IMG/VR virus record: IMGVR_UViG_3300031227_000563
Span: 1-20,089 of that record
DNA length: 20,089 nt
Direction: 5' to 3' (one strand)
From: a virus
Both the position numbers and the translations under genes were made by a program. Position 1 is the stretch's first letter, and the number at the start of each line of letters is the position of its first letter. The notes below the pieces were generated by a model, which was given only the letters and a program-made list of their open reading frames with translations, was not told the DNA's origin and ran no database searches. This document shows, in pieces, positions 2,093-15,165 of the stretch.

Positions 2093-3421
2093 ATGGGAGT
2101 TAATACAACTCATGGTTATTTTTATTTACCCGGATATGGGGTTAGCGGAGTAGCTGAAAAAGCTCTCTATGACGCAGGACAACAGGTAGCCGATACGGCT
2201 ATTCACAATTTAAGGGCCAATGTAGTCTATCCCCAAGCCTATGCCACAGGCACAGGAACATTAGGTGACCCTTGGGCTGGTGATTGTATAGATGATGCTT
2301 ATACTGCCTGTCCTGCTGGTGGGACAATATATTTAAGGGCAGGTTATTATCAATTAGCAGGTACGTTAGCTATTAAGAAAACGATTAACATAATCGGCGA
2401 GGGTATGGGTAAAACCTTTATCTTAACCGCCGATGCAAATGGTATTGTAATTGGTAAAGATTATGGTACTTTTGACAATATTACTCTGAAAAACTTTACA
2501 ATAGATGCAGATGCACAAACATCACACGAGGAAGGGAATAATTGTATAGATGCGTCTGGATTATATGACCCTGTCGATTATCTAACATTAGAAAATTTAG
2601 AGCTTAAAAATTCTGGATCTATAGGGGCAGATATTTTTCAATGTAATTATTCATTGATTAAAAATATTTTTGGGCATGATAATTACTCACATACTATCGA
2701 GTCGAGTGGTAACGCAGCAGGAACTGATATTCATAATACCTTTAAAAATATTTACACTTGGGATAATGGCTCTTGTGGTGTTTGGTTTTTTGGGAATAAT
2801 GATGCTGGTGCAGAATATACATATAATGTATTTGATAATATTCATGCGTGGGATAATACCAATTATGGTATAGGGATATGCAATCAAAAAGGTGCTGTTT
2901 TGTCTAATTCATCCTCAAGTGGAAGTGGGAAAGAAGGAATAAATTTACATACACTTACCGATTGTGACATCCATGATTGCGTTGTAAATGAGTCAGAACA
3001 ACATGGGATAACTCTTAATACTTCAAATAATATCAATTTCACCAATGTTATTGTAAAAAATAGTTCCGCAGATGAAGGTGATAATAGCGGAATTAGAATT
3101 GACGACTGTAATGATATCAATTTTAACTCTTGCCAAGCCTATGACGATAGAGGTACTGCATTGGCAAACTATGGGATAGTTCTTGTTGATACTAATACAA
3201 ATATTAATTTAACGAATTGTAAATTATCACCGAATTTAACTGGAGAAATACTTGGTACTACCGCAGGGATCGTCAAGCGTGATATGGCTACCTTTGGTAC
3301 TTCTGTAGCTGGTGATGTAGCCTACTTTGATGGAACTAACTGGGTAAGATTAGCAAAAGGAACAGCAGGGCAAGTATTGACAATGAGTACTGGAGCTTCC
3401 CCAGAATGGGCGACACCATAA
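2093..3421 (+). CDS. Right-handed parallel beta-helix tailspike-like protein
   Basis: This encodes 442 residues with a strong AGAGAGGTGATT site upstream. Residues 1-50 form a short adaptor-like N-terminus. Residues 52-110 (GTLGDPW..., GGTIYLRAGYY, IIGEGMGKTFIL) are the usual entry into a pectate-lyase-3-type beta-helix. Repeated rungs rich in Asn and Asp follow up to about residue 385 (for example LKNFTIDADAQ, YLTLENLELKNS, NNINFTNVIVKNSS, NDINFNSCQAYDD, NINLTNCKLS). The C-terminal ~45 residues (GDVAYFDGTNWVRL then GTAGQVLTM...PEWATP) are the end motif common in phage fibres and spikes, probably used for trimerisation or capping. Such spikes bind and often cleave capsule or other surface polysaccharide. 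I cannot assign catalytic residues, so enzyme activity is open. It lies between two genes with shared repeats, in an appendage cassette. Confidence 0.82.
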   Translation: MGVNTTHGYFYLPGYGVSGVAEKALYDAGQQVADTAIHNLRANVVYPQAYATGTGTLGDPWAGDCIDDAYTACPAGGTIYLRAGYYQLAGTLAIKKTINIIGEGMGKTFILTADANGIVIGKDYGTFDNITLKNFTIDADAQTSHEEGNNCIDASGLYDPVDYLTLENLELKNSGSIGADIFQCNYSLIKNIFGHDNYSHTIESSGNAAGTDIHNTFKNIYTWDNGSCGVWFFGNNDAGAEYTYNVFDNIHAWDNTNYGIGICNQKGAVLSNSSSSGSGKEGINLHTLTDCDIHDCVVNESEQHGITLNTSNNINFTNVIVKNSSADEGDNSGIRIDDCNDINFNSCQAYDDRGTALANYGIVLVDTNTNINLTNCKLSPNLTGEILGTTAGIVKRDMATFGTSVAGDVAYFDGTNWVRLAKGTAGQVLTMSTGASPEWATP

Positions 3422-3439: not shown

Positions 3440-6400
3440 ATGACTACTTATACATCTCAATATCCAACGCAAGACGCTGACCATGTTAAAGCTACAGAAT
3501 ACTACGGTACAACTTATTACCCATATTTTACTACTAACCCTACATTATCATTAACTGGCAGTCATGTTAATAATCAATGGTTAACACGTTTAGAAACAAA
3601 TATGCGTTTCCATGTTGACTTGGGCTCTGCAAAAATAATAAGAAGAATTTATTATGAAAATGGCCATCACTTTGCAAGTAATACTACTGGTGCTAAAAAC
3701 TTTATTTTTCAAGGTTCAAATACTGCGTCTGGAACATTTGATGATTTAGTTTATGCCAATAATGAGGGTTGGACAACTCTGACTTGTTTTGCAAATATTT
3801 TTGACCAACACACGGCAGCAGATGAAGCAGACCCTAAATATATTACTGTAACTAATACCACAGCTTATAGATATTATGCAATTAAGATTACCGATAATTA
3901 TAGTAGTGGAGAAACAGGTATCAGGCGAATAGAATTACAGACGGAAGATGACTATTCACCATCAACCGAAAAAGCTATAACAGGAGCAGTCACTTTTATA
4001 GGAACAGCAAAAAAAGAAACAGCTAAATCATTTTCAGGTATTTTAAATTTTGTAGGAAATATTGTTAAACTGCCAAATAAAGTTTTATCGGGAGTACTTA
4101 ATTTTGGGACTATCGTAGCAGGAGCAGTAAAGATATCAATTGCAGGAGTTTTGGCATTTGTAGGCAACGTAACTAAGGCTTCCAATGTAACAATTGAAGG
4201 AGTATTGACATTTATTGGAAATATCGTTAAATTAACGGGATGGTTTCTTGCCGGGTGGTTTACTTGGTGGTTTGATAAGTCAGGAGAAGGAGTTTTAACT
4301 CTATCAGGTGCTTTAACATTTGTTAGAAATATAACTAAGACTTCTAAGATAACGACTAAAGGCGTATTGACATTTGCAGGGAATACAGCTAAATCAATTG
4401 CTAAGGGTTTAATTGGAGTATTAACAGTCGCAGGTCTTTTACTTAGACCGTTAAAACAATTTATTTCATTGTCCGGAACTTTAACATTCGCAAGTGATTT
4501 AATTTCCCGTCTTGACAAACGTATATCTTTAAGTGGAACGTTAAATTTAGAAACTACCCTAAAAAAAGCAACAAATTATTACCGAATAATTGCGGGTAGT
4601 TTAAGTTTTGTAGGCGATATTGTTAAAAAAATTAATAAAAGATTATTATCCGCTTTAAGTTTTGTGGGAACTTCGATAACAAGATATATTCGATATGCGA
4701 TATTGTCAGGAATGGTGGCTTTTTCGGGGAATATATTAAACAAAATAGCTAAAAATTTACTAGGAACTTTATCATTCATTGGGAAATTAACAAAGGGGTT
4801 AAAAGAAAGTTTAGTGGGAACTTTGAGTTTTGCGGGAAGTCTACTAAACCCTTTTAAAAAATTATTATTATTAGCAGGTTCATTAAATTTTGTAGGGATT
4901 ATATCGAAGGTTGCTTTATTCTATAGAGTGTTATCGGGAGCATTATCATTTACAGGATTACTTGTAAAGGGTTTATACCAAAGCTTAATTGGATCTTTGG
5001 ATTTTACAGGAGCTATTTCAAGTATATCAAAGAAAATTGTATCGTTGGTTGGTTCAATTTCTTTCGAGGGGTTATTATCGAAAATCGGTTCTTTCCATAA
5101 ATCATTAGCGGGTGTATTAAGTTTTACTGGTTCGATAGTAAAAGGTTTGTCACAAGCTTTATCAGGTGTATTGAGTTTTGCGGGTGAATTAATCGCTTCA
5201 ACTGCAAAAACGGTTTTGATATCTGGGGAATTATTGTTTACAGGAGCATTAAGCGAGATTGCTTCCTTCCATAAAATACTATTAGGAACTTTATCTTTTG
5301 TTGGCAACTTGGCAATAAGTGCGGCTGAAATATTTTACCAAACGATTAGTGGAGCATTATCATTCACGGGTACGCTTGTAAAAGGACTATCCCAAAGCCT
5401 ATCAGGAACTTTAAGTTTTGTGGGTAATCTAATTTCCTCAACCACAAAATTAGTTTTGATGTCCGGGAATTTGCTATTTACGGGAACGGTGGAGAAGATT
5501 ATTTCTTTCCGTAGAATATTATTGGGAGTATTATCTTTTACAGGAAATTTTACTAAAAAAATATATCAGAGATTATCCGGCTTATTAAGTTTTACGGGAG
5601 TAATTACAAGTTCGATTACCCAAGTTATTGTTTTATCGGGAGCTTTGGCGTTTGAAGGAATATTATCAAAGGTAAGTCTATTTTATAAGGCATTATTAGG
5701 TTTATTGGCTTTTACGGGAACGATCACAAGAATTGGTTTATTTCGTAAAATCCTATCCGGTACTTTGAATTTTGCCGGTAACTTAACAAAGGATATTGCT
5801 GAATTATTTTATCAAACAATTAGCGGTGTTTTAACTTTTACTAAAATATCAACAAAGAAGTTATATAAAACTTTATCAGGTATATTAACTTTTTCGGGAA
5901 GCATATTAAATAAAATTGGAAAAAATTTATTAGGAACTTTATCATTAGTAGGAGAAATAATTAGACAAACCTCTACATCTTTTTCTGGTGCGTTAGTATT
6001 TGCAGGTACAAATATTAAAGGTGTATCAAAGTTATTGTATGGAGAAATGGCTGCGGGAATGGCTTTAACATGTACATCTCAATATCCACCAGCACAGTCA
6101 AATGTTTATGTTATAGCAGCAACTACACTGGGTGCATCTACTTTGGAGTGGTTTGCTACTGACCCTGGATTATCAGTAACAGGAGACTACAAGTATAATT
6201 CTTGGCTATCTGCAAATGGTTCTTATACTGAACAACGTTTTCATATAGACTTGGGTTCTGCAAAAATAATTAAAAGAATATATTTTGAAAACTTCCATGA
6301 TGATGGTGGACTTACAACTTTGGGTGTTAATAACTTTATATTTCAAGGAAGCAATACATATTCTGGAACATTTAATGATACATTTTTCGATAATAATGAA

Positions 6401-8842
6401 GGGTGGACAACACTTACTACAGACCCGACATTATTTCAAGAACATACTGCGGTAGACGAGGCAGACCCACAGTACGCAACGGTAACGAATACAACAGCTT
6501 ATCGTTATTATGCTTTTAAAATTGTAGATAACTATACTAGTGCAAATTATGTGGGAATGAGGAGAATAGAATTACAGACTGAAAGTGGGGGTGGAGTAGG
6601 AGCATTATCAGGTTCATTAATTAAACAACCGCAAAAGATTTTATCTGGAGCTTTAGCTTTTACTGGCAATCTTATAAATAGTATAAAAGTATTACTGGCA
6701 GGCATGATTACCTTTGCTGGAAGTATAGCTACTGGAGCAGCACAAATATATTATCAGGCGGTTGCTGGAGTATTAAATTTATCCGGAGAGGTAATTAAAA
6801 AAATAGCAATTTCTTTTGGTGGGGTAGTAGATTTTACAGGGACGATAATCAAAAGGGTATCTAAAAATATAATAGGATTATTAGATTTTGTAGGGACTAT
6901 ATCGAAAGTCGCTTCATTTTATAAGGCATTAATAGGAACTTTGTCCTTTGTAGGCATTTTAAATAAAGGAATATCTCAAACTTTATTAGGTATATTAACT
7001 TTTATCGGGAAATCCAATAAACTAATTAAAGAAATTTTATCGGGTAGCCTTGATTTTATAGGAACAGCATATAAGCTAACATTACAAAGTCTATCAGGTG
7101 TATTAACCTTTGCCGGCGATTTTGCAAAAACGGCTAATCGAATTATTTTATTATCTGGAAATTTAGCTTTTATAGGAATTTTATCGAAAATAAATTTATT
7201 TTTAAAAGTATTATCAGGAACATTATCATTTATAGGATTATCTTTGAGGGTTAGTTCATTCTATAGAACTTTATCAGGGGTATTATCATTTATTGGAATT
7301 TTAGCTAAAGATATTGCCAAAGTATTTTATCAGACTATAAATGGAATTTTGACTTTCGCGGGAATTTCAACAAAAAAATTATACCAGACATTATTGGGAG
7401 TTTTAACATTTAGGGGGGTAATATATAAATCCTCTAAAGAGATTTTAGAAGGTAGTCTCGCTTTCGTTGGTATTTTGAACAAAATAATGACACAAACTTT
7501 ATCCGGAATTTTATCTTTTATTGGAAAGGTTAGCAAATTATCCGAAAAAATATTAATAGGTAATTTAAATTTTACAGGAAAAATATATAAAGTAATATCC
7601 AAAAGCTTATCGGGAGTATTGAATTTTGCTGGGGAGATCACAAAGACAATTGCTTGGATTCTATCATTGATTGGAAGTTTAGATTTTTCTGGCTCGTTAT
7701 CAAAAACTACTTTATTCCGCAGAATTTTAACAGGGATTTTAAGTTTTAGCGGAGTAATTAGCAAACTTCCTAAAAAACTTTTAATCGGGATATTGACTTT
7801 TATAGGGGGATTTTCGAGAGTCAGCTCACTTTATAGAACCCTATCGGGAACTTTAAACTTTATTGGTATCTTGACCAAAGATGTTGCGGAATTATTTTTT
7901 CAAACTGTATCGGGAGTTTTAACCTTTGCAGGCGTTTCTACCAAAAAGATATATCAAGTTTTGGCAGGCATATTAAACTTTGCCGGATTAACAGCGAAAA
8001 GATTTTTCCAAAGTCTGATGGGGGCTTTGAGTTTTGTAGGCAACTTTGCAAAAACGGTTACAAGATTATTGTCATTATCGGGAACTTTAGATTTCTCCAG
8101 AACTATTACAAAAATAACTCAAAAAATATTGACAAGTAGCCTAAATTTTGTAAGTATTATATCAGTAGCAATCGCAATTGGTTTATCTGCAAGTTTGTCA
8201 TTTTCAGGAATTGTGGTTAAATCAATTTTAATAAATATAATTGGTGTTTTGGCATTTTCGGGAATTGTCGGCAAATTATCAAAAAAGATTTTATTTGCAA
8301 GTTTAGATTTTTCAAGTATAATATTTAAAAAGATTAGAACTATTTTATTAGGTGTTTTAGACTTTACGGCAATCATAATTAAAAGAGTATCCAAAGGATT
8401 GTCAGGTGTTTTAGACTTTGCGGGAATTACAACCAAAGGATTATCCAAAAGCTTATCGGGAGCTTTAAGTTTTGTGGGGGCAATAGTAGCCTCACTCGGA
8501 AATCAAGTTTTTCTTTATGGCTCAATTGCCTTTTCTGGGATAGCCGAAAAGTTACCTAAAAAGATTTTATCGGGCAGTCTGGTTTTTGCGGGAACTATCG
8601 GGAAAAAGATAGGGAAAATTTTAAGCGGCGTTTTAGATTTTATAGGCTCGATTGCCGAATATGTCAAATTTATTTTTACAACAGCGGATTTATCGATAGC
8701 ATATTGTAACTCGGATTTATCGGTAGTTGCAACGGGTAGTGTTTTAAGCGTTAAGCAAAATCAGTCAATTTTATCAGTTATAGAAAATGAAAGTATTTTA
8801 GATATTGATAATAATAAAACAGTTTTATCAATAACTCAATAG
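3440..8842 (+). CDS. Giant repeat appendage protein with two discoidin-like domains
   Basis: This encodes 1,800 residues; AAAAGGAGATAATT precedes the ATG. Architecture: discoidin/F5-8C-like domain 1 (about 1-175), repeat block 1 (181-866), discoidin-like domain 2 (about 870-1050), repeat block 2 (1057-1746), then a 54-residue tail of 9-residue repeats. The two discoidin-like domains are clear paralogues, sharing RFH(V/I)DLGSAKII(R/K)RIY, FIFQGSNT, NNEGWTTLT, TNTTAYRYYA and RRIELQTE; this fold usually binds glycans. The blocks consist of about 72 units with consensus S-G-x-L-x-F-x-G-x-(I/L)-x-K-(x)n-L, all of even length. There is no signal peptide or membrane-anchor pattern. Its neighbours are a beta-helix spike upstream and an Ig-like protein downstream, so a virion fibre is likely. 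The position before the neck genes leaves head, neck or tail attachment open. Function is not known. Confidence 0.8.
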   Translation: MTTYTSQYPTQDADHVKATEYYGTTYYPYFTTNPTLSLTGSHVNNQWLTRLETNMRFHVDLGSAKIIRRIYYENGHHFASNTTGAKNFIFQGSNTASGTFDDLVYANNEGWTTLTCFANIFDQHTAADEADPKYITVTNTTAYRYYAIKITDNYSSGETGIRRIELQTEDDYSPSTEKAITGAVTFIGTAKKETAKSFSGILNFVGNIVKLPNKVLSGVLNFGTIVAGAVKISIAGVLAFVGNVTKASNVTIEGVLTFIGNIVKLTGWFLAGWFTWWFDKSGEGVLTLSGALTFVRNITKTSKITTKGVLTFAGNTAKSIAKGLIGVLTVAGLLLRPLKQFISLSGTLTFASDLISRLDKRISLSGTLNLETTLKKATNYYRIIAGSLSFVGDIVKKINKRLLSALSFVGTSITRYIRYAILSGMVAFSGNILNKIAKNLLGTLSFIGKLTKGLKESLVGTLSFAGSLLNPFKKLLLLAGSLNFVGIISKVALFYRVLSGALSFTGLLVKGLYQSLIGSLDFTGAISSISKKIVSLVGSISFEGLLSKIGSFHKSLAGVLSFTGSIVKGLSQALSGVLSFAGELIASTAKTVLISGELLFTGALSEIASFHKILLGTLSFVGNLAISAAEIFYQTISGALSFTGTLVKGLSQSLSGTLSFVGNLISSTTKLVLMSGNLLFTGTVEKIISFRRILLGVLSFTGNFTKKIYQRLSGLLSFTGVITSSITQVIVLSGALAFEGILSKVSLFYKALLGLLAFTGTITRIGLFRKILSGTLNFAGNLTKDIAELFYQTISGVLTFTKISTKKLYKTLSGILTFSGSILNKIGKNLLGTLSLVGEIIRQTSTSFSGALVFAGTNIKGVSKLLYGEMAAGMALTCTSQYPPAQSNVYVIAATTLGASTLEWFATDPGLSVTGDYKYNSWLSANGSYTEQRFHIDLGSAKIIKRIYFENFHDDGGLTTLGVNNFIFQGSNTYSGTFNDTFFDNNEGWTTLTTDPTLFQEHTAVDEADPQYATVTNTTAYRYYAFKIVDNYTSANYVGMRRIELQTESGGGVGALSGSLIKQPQKILSGALAFTGNLINSIKVLLAGMITFAGSIATGAAQIYYQAVAGVLNLSGEVIKKIAISFGGVVDFTGTIIKRVSKNIIGLLDFVGTISKVASFYKALIGTLSFVGILNKGISQTLLGILTFIGKSNKLIKEILSGSLDFIGTAYKLTLQSLSGVLTFAGDFAKTANRIILLSGNLAFIGILSKINLFLKVLSGTLSFIGLSLRVSSFYRTLSGVLSFIGILAKDIAKVFYQTINGILTFAGISTKKLYQTLLGVLTFRGVIYKSSKEILEGSLAFVGILNKIMTQTLSGILSFIGKVSKLSEKILIGNLNFTGKIYKVISKSLSGVLNFAGEITKTIAWILSLIGSLDFSGSLSKTTLFRRILTGILSFSGVISKLPKKLLIGILTFIGGFSRVSSLYRTLSGTLNFIGILTKDVAELFFQTVSGVLTFAGVSTKKIYQVLAGILNFAGLTAKRFFQSLMGALSFVGNFAKTVTRLLSLSGTLDFSRTITKITQKILTSSLNFVSIISVAIAIGLSASLSFSGIVVKSILINIIGVLAFSGIVGKLSKKILFASLDFSSIIFKKIRTILLGVLDFTAIIIKRVSKGLSGVLDFAGITTKGLSKSLSGALSFVGAIVASLGNQVFLYGSIAFSGIAEKLPKKILSGSLVFAGTIGKKIGKILSGVLDFIGSIAEYVKFIFTTADLSIAYCNSDLSVVATGSVLSVKQNQSILSVIENESILDIDNNKTVLSITQ
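3980..6037 (+). repeat. Repeat block 1 of the giant protein (residues 181-866)
   Basis: Thirty-five consecutive segments can be laid end to end over 686 residues with no residue left over. Most are 18 or 20 long, two are 22, and one is a 36-residue double unit with a Trp-rich insert (near 4200-4307). Typical units are SGALSFTGTLVKGLSQSL (18) and SGALAFEGILSKVSLFYKAL (20). The DNA of neighbouring units differs heavily at third positions while the protein pattern is kept. Confidence 0.85.
6608..8677 (+). repeat. Repeat block 2 of the giant protein (residues 1057-1746)
   Basis: Thirty-seven consecutive segments cover 690 residues: one 12-residue starter, then units of 18, 20 or 22. Examples are SGVLTFAGVSTKKIYQVL (18), SGTLSFIGLSLRVSSFYRTL (20) and SGTLNFIGILTKDVAELF plus FQTV (22). 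The block is within four residues of the length of block 1, but the order of unit types is not the same. Confidence 0.85.
8687..8839 (+). repeat. 9-residue tandem repeats at the C-terminus of the giant protein
   Basis: Residues 1750-1800 divide into DLSIAYCNS / DLSVVATGS / VLSVKQNQS / ILSVIENES / ILDIDNNKT / VLSITQ. The consensus is (D/V/I)-L-(S/D)-(I/V)-x-x-N-x-(S/T). The repeat type and length differ from the blocks before it. It ends at the last codon, so it may be a cap, a multimerisation segment or an attachment element. Confidence 0.75.
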
Positions 8843-9155: not shown

Positions 9156-10010
9156 ATGCCAAGTGGAGTTTATAAACATAAACCACTTTCCGAAGAAACA
9201 AAAAGAAAACTCAGCAAAGCACATAAAGGGAAACCAGCTTGGAATAAAGGTATCCCGGCTACAGAAGAAACTAAAAAGAAATTAAGGGAACGAGTTCCTT
9301 CAATGTCGGGTAAACATCATTCAGAAGAAACAAAAGCAAAATTGAGTAAATCTCATAAAGGTAAAAAGTTTTCTGAAGAAACCAGGGAAAAGATGAGCAA
9401 GGTCAGTAAAAACAGGCATCCATCAGAAGAAACTAAAAGAAAGATTAGCGAAACATTAAAAGGTCACGAAGTTTCCGAAGAAACAAAAAAGAAAATGAGA
9501 GGTAGAAAGCGTTCTGAAGAGACCAGAATAAAATTGAGCGAGTCACATAAGGGGCAAATCACTTGGATGAAAGGTAAACTCCACACTAAAGAGACTAAAC
9601 AAAAAATGAGTGAATCTCATAAAGGACTAAAACTTTCAGAAGAGACTAAAGAAAAAATAAGTAAAGCAAATAAAGGTAAAATCCTTTCAGAAGAAACGGT
9701 AAGGAAACTAAGTGGGGAAAATAATCATAACTGGAAAGGTGGGATTTCTTTTGAACGATATTCACAAGACTGGACTGATGATCTAAAAGAAGCAGTGCGA
9801 AAAAGGGATAATTATATTTGTCAACTCTGTGGTTTGCACCAAGACGAATTAGACGGATGGAATAAAAAATTAGATGTTCATCATATTGATTATCAAAAAA
9901 ATAATTTGGACCCTGGAAATTTAGTAATACTTTGTCGGAGTTGTCATCTTAAAACAAACTATGACAGAGATTATTGGGAAAGATATTTAAAAGAGAAGAG
10001 GGGTGGTTAG
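9156..10010 (+). CDS. NUMOD3-repeat HNH homing endonuclease, free-standing
   Basis: This encodes 284 residues, preceded by AAGGAGG (9136-9142) that overlaps the stop of the previous gene; the 13-base spacing to ATG is rather long. Residues 10-196 hold ten copies of a NUMOD3-like DNA-binding motif (SEETKxKxSxxHKG type). Residues 210-270 form an HNH nuclease: CQLC (C222, C225) and CRSC (C260, C263) give the zinc knuckles, DVHHID (H242, H243) the catalytic histidines, and N255, H264 and N268 complete the beta-beta-alpha-metal motif. All key residues are intact, so it is probably active. Enzymes of this kind make site-specific nicks or breaks in unoccupied alleles and spread by repair. No intron or intein splice boundary is evident; the gene lies neatly between two structural genes. 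The next gene's ribosome binding site is embedded in its last codons. Confidence 0.93.
   Translation: MPSGVYKHKPLSEETKRKLSKAHKGKPAWNKGIPATEETKKKLRERVPSMSGKHHSEETKAKLSKSHKGKKFSEETREKMSKVSKNRHPSEETKRKISETLKGHEVSEETKKKMRGRKRSEETRIKLSESHKGQITWMKGKLHTKETKQKMSESHKGLKLSEETKEKISKANKGKILSEETVRKLSGENNHNWKGGISFERYSQDWTDDLKEAVRKRDNYICQLCGLHQDELDGWNKKLDVHHIDYQKNNLDPGNLVILCRSCHLKTNYDRDYWERYLKEKRGG
9183..9743 (+). repeat. Ten NUMOD3-like repeats in the HNH protein
   Basis: Residues 10-196 contain ten (S/T)(E/K)ET-centred helix-turn-helix-like motifs: LSEETKRKLS, ATEETKKKLR, HSEETKAKLS, FSEETREKMS, PSEETKRKIS, VSEETKKKMR, RSEETRIKLS, HTKETKQKMS, LSEETKEKIS, LSEETVRKLS. The last runs into NHNWKGG. A long set like this implies an extended DNA recognition surface. 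Confidence 0.85.
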
Positions 10011-11634: not shown

Positions 11635-12273
11635 ATGTTAGATTATATTACGATTTTAGGGACTGGGGCAACCTTAATGAGATGCCCTGAAAAGAAAATT
11701 GAAAATGGTGAATATTGGGGATGTAACGGTACTTATAAAAAAGTTAAAATTGAATTAGATAAATTATTTATTATGAAAGATTTATATTTAACTCAATATA
11801 ATAAAGAAAAAACATTAATTAAAGATATTAACAAAAAGGATTTTCCAGTTTATACTTTAGGGAAATATCCGGAAATTAAAAATAATATTCAATATCCCGT
11901 TAAAGAAATATTAAAAGAATTTAAAATAGGATATTTCTTAACCAATATTTCTTATATGCTGGCTTTGGCGATTACCAAAAAACCAAAGTGTATAGGAATG
12001 TTCGGGGTAGATATGAATTTTGGCACCAATATTGAATATATGAGAAATGAAAAAAGTTGTATAGAGTTTTGGCTGGGGGTTGCAACGGGTCGGGGGATCG
12101 AGATACATATTCCTGTTCAATCGACTGTAATGAAGCGAAAAGGACATGGGGCATTTTACGGAATGAAAGTTAAAAAGGAAGGTAATGGTTTATTGCTTAC
12201 CCCAGACTATATGTGGGATAGAGAAAAATGTGCCGCAAAATATAAGATAGCTAAAAAGAGTAATATGTTTTAA
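11635..12273 (+). CDS. Rossmann-type 'GVDM' protein, copy A (DUF115/MptE-like?)
   Basis: This encodes 212 residues with AAAGAGAGGTTTT before the ATG. A Gly-rich first strand (ITILGTGATLMRCP, residues 5-18) suggests a nucleotide or nucleotide-sugar fold. It is followed by EYWGCNGTY, DKLFIMKD, FPVYTLG, a hydrophobic helix (NISYMLALAITKKP), a strand ending in the signature MFGVDMNFG, then CIEFWLGVATGRGIEIHIP. The same order of motifs is found in the gene at 13374. This resembles DUF115/MptE-like Rossmann proteins, some of which are linked to glycosyl transfer, but that is a pattern judgement and the activity is not known. It is not a structural gene by composition. It sits between the gp10-like protein and the inverted-repeat-flanked gene; a role in modifying virion or host glycans would fit the glycan-binding neighbours. 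Confidence 0.6.
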   Translation: MLDYITILGTGATLMRCPEKKIENGEYWGCNGTYKKVKIELDKLFIMKDLYLTQYNKEKTLIKDINKKDFPVYTLGKYPEIKNNIQYPVKEILKEFKIGYFLTNISYMLALAITKKPKCIGMFGVDMNFGTNIEYMRNEKSCIEFWLGVATGRGIEIHIPVQSTVMKRKGHGAFYGMKVKKEGNGLLLTPDYMWDREKCAAKYKIAKKSNMF

Positions 12274-13373: not shown

Positions 13374-14036
13374 ATGAAGAAGGATTTTAAGAAGGGATTG
13401 GATGAAATAATAATTTTGGCACAGGGGCCGAGTTGGTATCAAGCTCCCCAAAAGGCTCCCGAAAATACGGAGATATGGGGATCAAATATTATTTACAGAG
13501 AAGGAAATAAAGTAGATAGATTATTTGTAGGGCATGATATTAGGATTTTAATGTTGCACGATGACCCCGATTTTGTAAAAAATGTAAATGAATTAGATGT
13601 TCCGATTTATACAACGGGAAGATTTAAATGTCTTAAAAATGATTTTCCAATTCCCATAAATGAAATAATGGATAAATTTCATACAGCATTTTTTCTTAAT
13701 ATTATTGCTTATATGATAGCAACGGCTATTTTGCAAAAACCGAAAAAAATAAGTATATATGGAGTAGATATGAGACCGGATGCAGGAAATGAAACTTATA
13801 GCAATGAAAAGGGGAGCGTAGAATTTTGGTTAGGAGTTGCGATGGGGCAGGGTATTGAAATTATTAATACGAAAGAATCTTTTGTATTAAAGACAAAACA
13901 AGAAGGGGATTTTAAAAATAAAAGAGAAAAAGTTCCCCAAATAGGATTATACACGCAGATACCGCAAGCAGAAAGAAATCCTATTGGTATTCAGAATTAT
14001 ATTATTTTACCAGATCCGTTGGGGTCTGAAATTTAA
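13374..14036 (+). CDS. Rossmann-type 'GVDM' protein, copy B (paralogue of 11635-12273)
   Basis: This encodes 220 residues; AAAAAGAGGTGAAAG precedes the ATG. Motifs follow the same order as in copy A: Gly-rich strand IIILAQGPSWYQAP (the 'GPSW' form is closer to the usual nucleotide-binding turn), EIWGSNIIY, DRLFVGHDIR, VPIYTTGRF, helix NIIAYMIATAILQKP, signature IYGVDMRPD, then the closing VEFWLGVAMGQGIEI. The C-terminal 40 residues are unique and hydrophilic. Both copies keep the signature residues, so both are probably functional, perhaps on different substrates. No catalytic residue can be named. It stands between the tail terminator and the tube genes, an unusual place for an enzyme-like gene. 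A role in glycan or nucleotide-sugar chemistry is a guess from fold pattern alone. Confidence 0.6.
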   Translation: MKKDFKKGLDEIIILAQGPSWYQAPQKAPENTEIWGSNIIYREGNKVDRLFVGHDIRILMLHDDPDFVKNVNELDVPIYTTGRFKCLKNDFPIPINEIMDKFHTAFFLNIIAYMIATAILQKPKKISIYGVDMRPDAGNETYSNEKGSVEFWLGVAMGQGIEIINTKESFVLKTKQEGDFKNKREKVPQIGLYTQIPQAERNPIGIQNYIILPDPLGSEI

Positions 14037-14086: not shown

Positions 14087-14455
14087 ATGAGTGAATTAAA
14101 AGGATTGGACGGAAGTGTTGTTTTTGCTAATGGGCAAACTTATGTAAGTAATTGGACATTAAATTATGTTGCGGGAACTCATGACACAACGAATTTCGAT
14201 AGTTCTTCTGGAGGGAAAGTATTTATTGCAGGAGTAAAAGAATGGAGCGGAAGTTATGATTGTTTCTATTCTACGGGCAATACTGCGGTTCCGGGAGATA
14301 CAGGAAATATCGTTCTAAAAACATCTACGGGGATTGTTGGAGTTTGGTCAGGTGGAATAATTATTACTGGAATGGATATTACTACTCCCGTTGATGGTGT
14401 AGTAGCCCAAAATTATTCTTTCCAAGGAACTGGTTTAATAACCGCAAGTTCATAA
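14087..14455 (+). CDS. Tail tube-like protein 1 (compact form)
   Basis: This encodes 122 residues; ACGAGGTGAATTAAAG is the ribosome binding site. The sequence is a single beta-sandwich: LDGSVVFANGQTYVSNWTLN, YVAGTHDTTNFDSSSGGKVFI, VKEWSGSYDCFYSTG, then the closing GIIITGMDITTPVDGVVAQN and YSFQGTGLI. The 'NWT.NYV.G.HD.T.F', 'EWS' and 'QN.SFQG.G' elements are typical of small siphovirus tail tube subunits, which stack as hexameric rings around the tape measure. Position just before the second tube-like gene and the tail assembly chaperones fits. At 122 residues it is short for a major tail protein, but the neighbouring paralogue carries an extra domain. Which of the two forms the tube cannot be decided here. 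Confidence 0.72.
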   Translation: MSELKGLDGSVVFANGQTYVSNWTLNYVAGTHDTTNFDSSSGGKVFIAGVKEWSGSYDCFYSTGNTAVPGDTGNIVLKTSTGIVGVWSGGIIITGMDITTPVDGVVAQNYSFQGTGLITASS

Positions 14456-14472: not shown

Positions 14473-15165
14473 ATGAGTGAAATTAGTGGAGTAAATGGAG
14501 CCGTATATTACAACGAAGAATTAAGCAGTACTGCAACTGCAAATGATATTGAATTTTCGACTGGAGATAGTACAATAACTTCTGTTTTAATAGACTTTGG
14601 AACTACTGGGGTAGGATTTAAAGCGGGGATGTTGTTTGATTTATCGGAATGTGGAGAAAAAGATTCAAACGAGAGAATATATACTATTGATACAGTACTT
14701 AATAAAGTAATTACAACGGTAGAAGCGATTACTTCTGGGGGAGCTTGTACGGGGACTCCAGTTTTTACCGAATATGACCCTGGTATTGAGATATGCGGAT
14801 TTTACAACTGGACAATAAATTATGTATCGGGCATTCACGATGTAACTGCTTTTTGTAATTCTTCTGCCGGTAAATCTTTTATCCCCAGTGTTACTGAATG
14901 GTCAGCCACAGCAGATAAATATTTTTTAACAGCGAATAATACTGTAGATGATTGGCTTGCCACAGAAGTAGAAGTTAGGTTTTTTACCAAATATGTTGCA
15001 AGTCCGACCGTAGGGGATCCTGCTCAATATTGGGAAGGCACTATGTTGGTAACCGGGATAGATGAAACTACCCCAGTAGATGCGTTAGTTACTCAGAATT
15101 TAAGTTTCCAAGGCAAAGGAGCATTAACCTTAACTACAAAAACGAATGATTGGAATACGACTTAA
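14473..15165 (+). CDS. Tail tube-like protein 2 (paralogue with inserted domain)
   Basis: This encodes 230 residues; AAGAGGTGAATAAAAA precedes the ATG. It starts MSEISGVNGAVYYNEE like its upstream neighbour. At about residues 17-105 (14521-14790) it contains an inserted beta-rich segment: STITSVLIDFGTTGVGFKAG, then ERIYTIDTVLNKVITTVEAI. It then resumes the tube pattern: NWTINYVSGIHDVTAFCNSS, SVTEWSATADKYFL, MLVTGIDETTPVDALVTQNL, SFQGKGAL. The shared motifs show that the two genes arose by duplication. A tube subunit with an outward-facing extra domain, or a minor subunit near the end of the tube, are both plausible. The following gene is the tail assembly chaperone, as expected after a major tail protein. 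Confidence 0.72.
   Translation: MSEISGVNGAVYYNEELSSTATANDIEFSTGDSTITSVLIDFGTTGVGFKAGMLFDLSECGEKDSNERIYTIDTVLNKVITTVEAITSGGACTGTPVFTEYDPGIEICGFYNWTINYVSGIHDVTAFCNSSAGKSFIPSVTEWSATADKYFLTANNTVDDWLATEVEVRFFTKYVASPTVGDPAQYWEGTMLVTGIDETTPVDALVTQNLSFQGKGALTLTTKTNDWNTT

Follow-up and report, generated by a model that had tools for sequence, protein, structure and literature searches.

Mirror symmetry and a preference for even unit lengths in a beta-strand repeat from a putative adhesion stalk of uncultivated tailed phages

The DNA analyzed here, a 20,089-base record of an uncultivated virus (hereafter the window), comes, judging by its gene content, from a tailed phage. Its central feature is a plus-strand ORF of 1,800 aa (3440-8842) containing two long arrays of a short repeat. 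The same ORF is present on a near-identical contig (L001), which extends further upstream and adds genes for a head maturation protease, the virion structural protein phrog_1623 and two related 290-aa proteins. The gene order is thus head protease, phrog_1623, the two 290-aa proteins, array gene, head-tail adaptor, neck, tail terminator, major tail and tape measure, the last five following the array-gene region in the window. This places the array gene between the capsid genes and the head-tail adaptor gene. The 290-aa proteins, which are 69% identical and encoded in tandem after the phrog_1623 gene (5118-6939 of L001; positions 3-581 of the window are the end of the second copy), are likely capsid decoration proteins; the second has no match in Pfam.

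Two further plus-strand ORFs lie immediately upstream of the array gene. The first (1310-2059, 249 aa) shows a weak F5/8 type C match at its N terminus (Pfam E = 0.25) and a short run of the array repeat, with one interval scored as 21 residues; it aligns with the 1,800-aa protein at E = 1.4e-8. The second (2093-3421, 442 aa) encodes a right-handed beta-helix, tailspike-like protein (Pfam Beta_helix, 2.3e-11; PHROG tail spike, 4.5e-6). Among the structural genes downstream, positions 9156-10010 encode a probable free-standing homing endonuclease with an HNH domain and six NUMOD3 motifs (5.1e-35). Two paralogous proteins with no Pfam match (11635-12273 and 13374-14036; 39% identity, 5e-46) lie among the neck and tail genes, and two adjacent genes (14087-14455 and 14473-15165) each match the major tail protein family phrog_1407.

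In the 1,800-aa protein, each of two domains is followed by an array, and short repeats make up the C terminus. A discoidin-like domain of about 170 aa, resembling F5/8 type C and DUF5000, occupies the N terminus (3440-3949). It is followed by array 1 (3980-6037, residues 181-866), with units of 18, 20 and 22 residues and a Trp-rich double unit of 36 residues (4196-4303; residues 253-288, or 254-289 in anchor numbering). The second discoidin-like copy (6059-6580) has a DUF5000 match at residues 920-1043, and the two halves of the protein align with each other. Array 2 (6608-8677, residues 1057-1746) again consists of units of 18, 20 and 22 residues, so that the repeat region of the preliminary description (3980-8677) corresponds to residues 181-1746. 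The protein closes with 9-residue repeats (8678-8839; ..VLSVKQNQS ILSVIENES ILDIDNNKT..), which are possibly an anchoring or trimerization end. Similar 9-residue tails, of the xLSIxxNxS or RIYPIEKDD type, close many other arrays, those of six relatives among them.

The discoidin-like copy of the window scored 20.5 bits against F5/8 type C, below the curated cut-off of 27.8. The family was matched by 14 of 16 relatives (best 5.1e-7), and DUF5000 by 15 of the 16 (best 5.1e-10). Three relatives of the array bear Laminin_G_3 in place of the discoidin-like domain; the N-terminal modules resemble both known domains, and the window copies fall under curated cut-offs. Conversely, the discoidin-like domain occurs without the repeat (relatives L005-L021), in other viral contigs and in contigs of bacterial and archaeal metagenome-assembled genomes. 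The domains of L015-L021, which are 46-60% identical, were found on contigs from genome bins of WOR-3, Patescibacteria, Methanothrix and Nitrosotalea, among others. Since the domain is found without the repeat, the stalk and the head are independent modules, and tracing the array through its N-terminal domain proved unsuitable for the same reason. Other additions were seen by eye. In two relatives, about 690 residues resembling a PhoD-type phosphodiesterase are fused after the array, and in another a 343-aa insert with no Pfam match, resembling a glycosidase-type barrel, lies amid the repeat units. Where a relative has a recognizable capsid or tape-measure gene, the array gene appears to share its contig and strand; the gene order varies, and so does not point to any fixed place on the virion.

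The units were delimited with a self-trained profile and dynamic programming, the spacing being free within 12-40 residues and no length being preferred. This gave 70 anchors, with contiguous intervals of 18 (37 times), 20 (24 times), 22 (5 times) and 36 residues (twice), and none of odd length. One of the two 36-residue intervals splits into 18 + 18, and the second corresponds to the Trp-rich double unit. A broader second model gave the same parity (39 intervals of 18, 24 of 20, 5 of 22, and one each of 24 and 30). The claim that every unit of this protein is even (18, 20 or 22 residues, and one of 36) was therefore borne out, no odd interval appearing in either segmentation. The lattice itself is far above chance, because a DNA pattern of two units spaced 18 codons apart matched 15 times in the window and in none of 100 shuffles.

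The even intervals are not all independent observations. Units that are nearest neighbors in DNA similarity within the window share their length class in 48 of 70 cases, versus 32 ± 4.7 expected (p = 0.0008), and a super-repeat of 174 nt (18 + 20 + 20) is visible in the array DNA. Unit lengths are thus partly inherited through duplication, so that 70 even units out of 70 do not represent 70 independent events.

Relatives were collected by scanning IMG/VR with a degenerate DNA pattern in which two repeat cores stood a set distance apart. We kept 55 arrays from the first three scans (18-, 19- and 20-codon patterns), forming 50 clusters at 60% identity; nine loci of looser cousins were excluded from the profile work, and matches to VGV, GFTGS and collagen-like patterns were discarded as unrelated low-complexity repeats. 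The 50 independent arrays provided 737 intervals, 680 even and 57 odd. The 18-residue class was the largest (440), followed by 20 (194), 22 (33), 19 (28), 25 (17), 21 and 24 (6 each) and 23 (5); a 15-residue interval was found once and a 17-residue interval never. Many of the clusters mix units of 18, 20 and 22 residues. As the arrays had been chosen by pattern spacings of 18, 19 and 20, a fairer comparison is offered by the loci in which the pair hit by the pattern is itself part of an array. In IMG/VR these numbered 0 at spacing 17, at least 43 at 18, 2 at 19, at least 42 at 20, 10 at 21 and at least 13 at 22, several of the spacing-21 loci belonging to cousins with uniform 21-residue units. 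In four such cousin arrays the units (e.g. ..GTIGATQAANTASL) are mirrored about a bond rather than a residue.

These counts rule out a strict law of even lengths, in view of the 57 odd intervals, the recurrent 25-residue class and the uniform 21-residue cousins. Two-residue quantization, as advanced in the preliminary description, thus failed as a rule, odd units being present in homologues (28 of 19 residues, 17 of 25, 6 of 21 and 5 of 23), and stood as a bias. Even length is a strong family preference with discrete exceptions. No two-unit period, as would reflect strand alternation, was seen in the unit lengths: the autocorrelation was negative at lags 1 and 2 and positive at lag 4, the latter being best read, in arrays other than that of the window, as block duplication.

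The repeat does not correspond to a described family. Protein queries retrieved no relative of the array from 50,697 GenBank phage records, an absence that is informative at the sensitivity of the search, because one of the queries recovers 45 of the 55 family members by BLAST with the low-complexity filter on. No Pfam or PHROGs family matched more than 5 of 41 members, the weak matches being scattered; those to PHROG tape-measure proteins were set aside for that reason. The window protein had no NCBIfam match, and comparison of the repeat with PDB chains gave no sequence match at an E-value below 0.03. Triple beta-spiral shafts of the adenovirus type do not fit, as they have repeats of about 15 residues; the intervals found here span 16-26, apart from the single one of 15 among 737, which is in an outlier array. 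Nor do functional amyloids of the curli/FapC type, whose repeats have conserved Gln/Asn ladders, whereas Gly, Leu, Phe and Lys are the residues conserved here. Phages are known to have fibre-like adhesion proteins, but this repeat class, with the mirror symmetry set out below, appears undescribed in open-licence papers.

The profile of the 18-residue unit reads [ST]-G-x-L-S-F-T-G-x-L-x-K-x-[IT]-x-K-x-L. Taken from Lys16 round to Lys12, it becomes K-x-L-x-G-x-L-x-F-x-G-x-L-x-K, a palindrome except for one Leu/Phe pair. Compared with its own reversal, the profile scored 0.89 when centered on position 5 and at most 0.67 at other centers; all mirror pairs scored at least 0.92 apart from Leu4/Phe6. 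Shuffles that preserved the alternation, by keeping odd and even columns apart, reached 0.89 in only 0.2-0.4% of cases (p = 0.002-0.004). The symmetry was present in each half of a random split of the arrays, and the window by itself gave p = 0.029. The best mirror center was identical in the classes of 18, 19, 20, 21 and 22 residues, and the connection was mirrored about its own midpoint in classes 18, 19, 20 and 21 (p = 0.003, 0.014, 0.002 and 0.008, respectively). With alternation preserved, the symmetry did not reach significance for class 20 (p = 0.10) or class 22 (p = 0.06).

The simplest cause of such symmetry would be that neighboring units run in opposite directions, like pairing with like. 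The profile thus suggests antiparallel strands, one per unit; covariation between adjacent units favored neither a parallel nor an antiparallel arrangement. In a hairpin, lengthening adds one residue to each strand, so that the unit would grow by two. A strong bias that allows exceptions appears to be better explained by hairpin growth than by the alternation rule put forward earlier. Continuous alternation is not a strict need either, since a turn centered on a bond can leave a 21-residue unit with its hydrophobic face intact.

We considered the possibility that the array is instead a parallel beta-solenoid (beta-helix) with one coil per unit, which would serve the adhesion fibre as its shaft; a solenoid or cross-beta fibre with one rung per unit had been suggested in the preliminary description. 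An AlphaFold2 (AF2) model of nine units, based on 41 sequences, was all beta except for one terminal helix (pLDDT 78.8, pTM 0.70). In structural comparisons, 177 of its 180 residues aligned with parallel beta-helices, the best being 5dns (Z 13.8, 2.7 A), and it also aligned with QnrB1 (2xty, Z 13.4) and with the tail fibre of phage 7-7-1 (Z 12.4); Foldseek E-values were above 0.01. The five models spanned 68 to 79 pLDDT, however, and a gap-free alignment of four units (52 sequences), meant to lessen the bias towards solenoids, gave a pLDDT of only 67 and weak alignments to solenoids (SV2C, Z 7.3). The 12-residue strands of this second model were dropped as proof of an antiparallel arrangement, because strands can bend round the corners of a solenoid. 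In a published test (PMC11795689), moreover, AF2 turned 32 of 78 random repeat sequences into confident beta-solenoids, at a mean pLDDT of 76.7; stacked charges sometimes give such models away. In the repeat profile, Lys12 and Lys16 share their alternation face with Leu10, Ile/Thr14 and Leu18, so that a solenoid might stack lysines in or near its core unless that stretch is a loop. Because of this bias and this risk, the predictions are evidence for beta structure, but weak evidence for a solenoid. Beta-solenoids such as QnrB1, MpAFP and phage tail fibres and spikes resemble the modeled array as tandem all-beta coils of about 20 residues, and differ from it in the mirror symmetry of the array repeat and in its lysines in the core-facing register. 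A loop between coils should also tolerate every length, a freedom that is absent here, and the symmetry would be left without a reason. We regard the solenoid as possible, though somewhat less likely than antiparallel strands. What stood of the earlier structural proposal is beta structure with continuous in/out alternation, both models being beta, and an extended rod with one structural element per unit; one solenoid or cross-beta rung per unit is in doubt, as the models resemble beta-helices, with moderate or low confidence, but mirror symmetry suggests antiparallel strands. The proposed length of 34 nm would hold only if one strand made one step of 0.47-0.48 nm, and it would be divided into two blocks of about 16-17 nm with a domain between them.

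Even lengths might also be structurally irrelevant and reflect only the tandem duplication of a small set of ancestral units, 18, 20 and 22 residues long. The link between length class and sequence similarity in the window, the 174-nt super-repeat and the lag-4 autocorrelation in other arrays all agree with this, and duplication has contributed. As a full explanation it is unlikely, since the bias recurs in 50 clusters split at 60% identity, many of them mixing the three lengths and none containing a 17-residue unit. Finally, strands with one hydrophobic and one polar face and a Lys at either end could in principle form a membrane-inserted or lipid-binding, porin-like sheet rather than a fibre. 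The large and very variable number of units (up to 72), the lectin-type domains and the position of the gene within the head cluster of a tailed phage make this highly improbable.

The reading that we favor, with a probability of about 0.45, is that of a virion-associated adhesion stalk made of mirror-symmetric antiparallel strands and bearing discoidin-like domains. Each repeat would be a single amphipathic beta-strand, some 12-15 residues long (K-x-L-x-G-x-L-x-F-x-G-x-L-x-K), joined to the next, antiparallel one by a short connection centered at unit position 14. The outcome would be a long beta-meander with one Leu/Phe face and one Ser/Thr face, the former probably hidden by self-association in a dimeric or trimeric fibre. 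Added length would be split symmetrically, one residue going to each strand of a hairpin, and units would step from 18 to 20 to 22. An odd unit would need a different, bond-centered turn and would hence be rarer; the 21-residue cousins may have such a turn.

Judging from the domains and the gene neighborhood, the product is most likely an adhesion fibre, in which the rods would hold the two discoidin-like domains, as putative binding modules, away from the particle. Flagellotropic phage 7-7-1 provides a possible parallel in its capsid (head) fibres, which are long, make first contact with the host and are themselves of still unknown structure (PMC12796354); the array gene lies beside capsid genes. 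In pyocin fibres and in K1F endosialidase, beta-prism and knob domains build trimeric prisms from antiparallel or ladder-like sheets, again in phage-derived fibres (PMC6116203). They are short, in contrast with the far longer array of about 70 units, and the comparison is one of idea alone.

More broadly, and tentatively, the arrays could represent a widespread, so far undescribed class of viral fibre in uncultivated phages, an open-ended antiparallel beta-meander that grows symmetrically and serves as an interchangeable stalk for lectin-type domains. If so, a fibre architecture absent from the GenBank phage set searched would be common in environmental viruses. Hairpin geometry would then account for the puzzling length rule, and mirror symmetry would provide a sequence-only test for antiparallel repeats, useful where AlphaFold2 defaults to solenoids.
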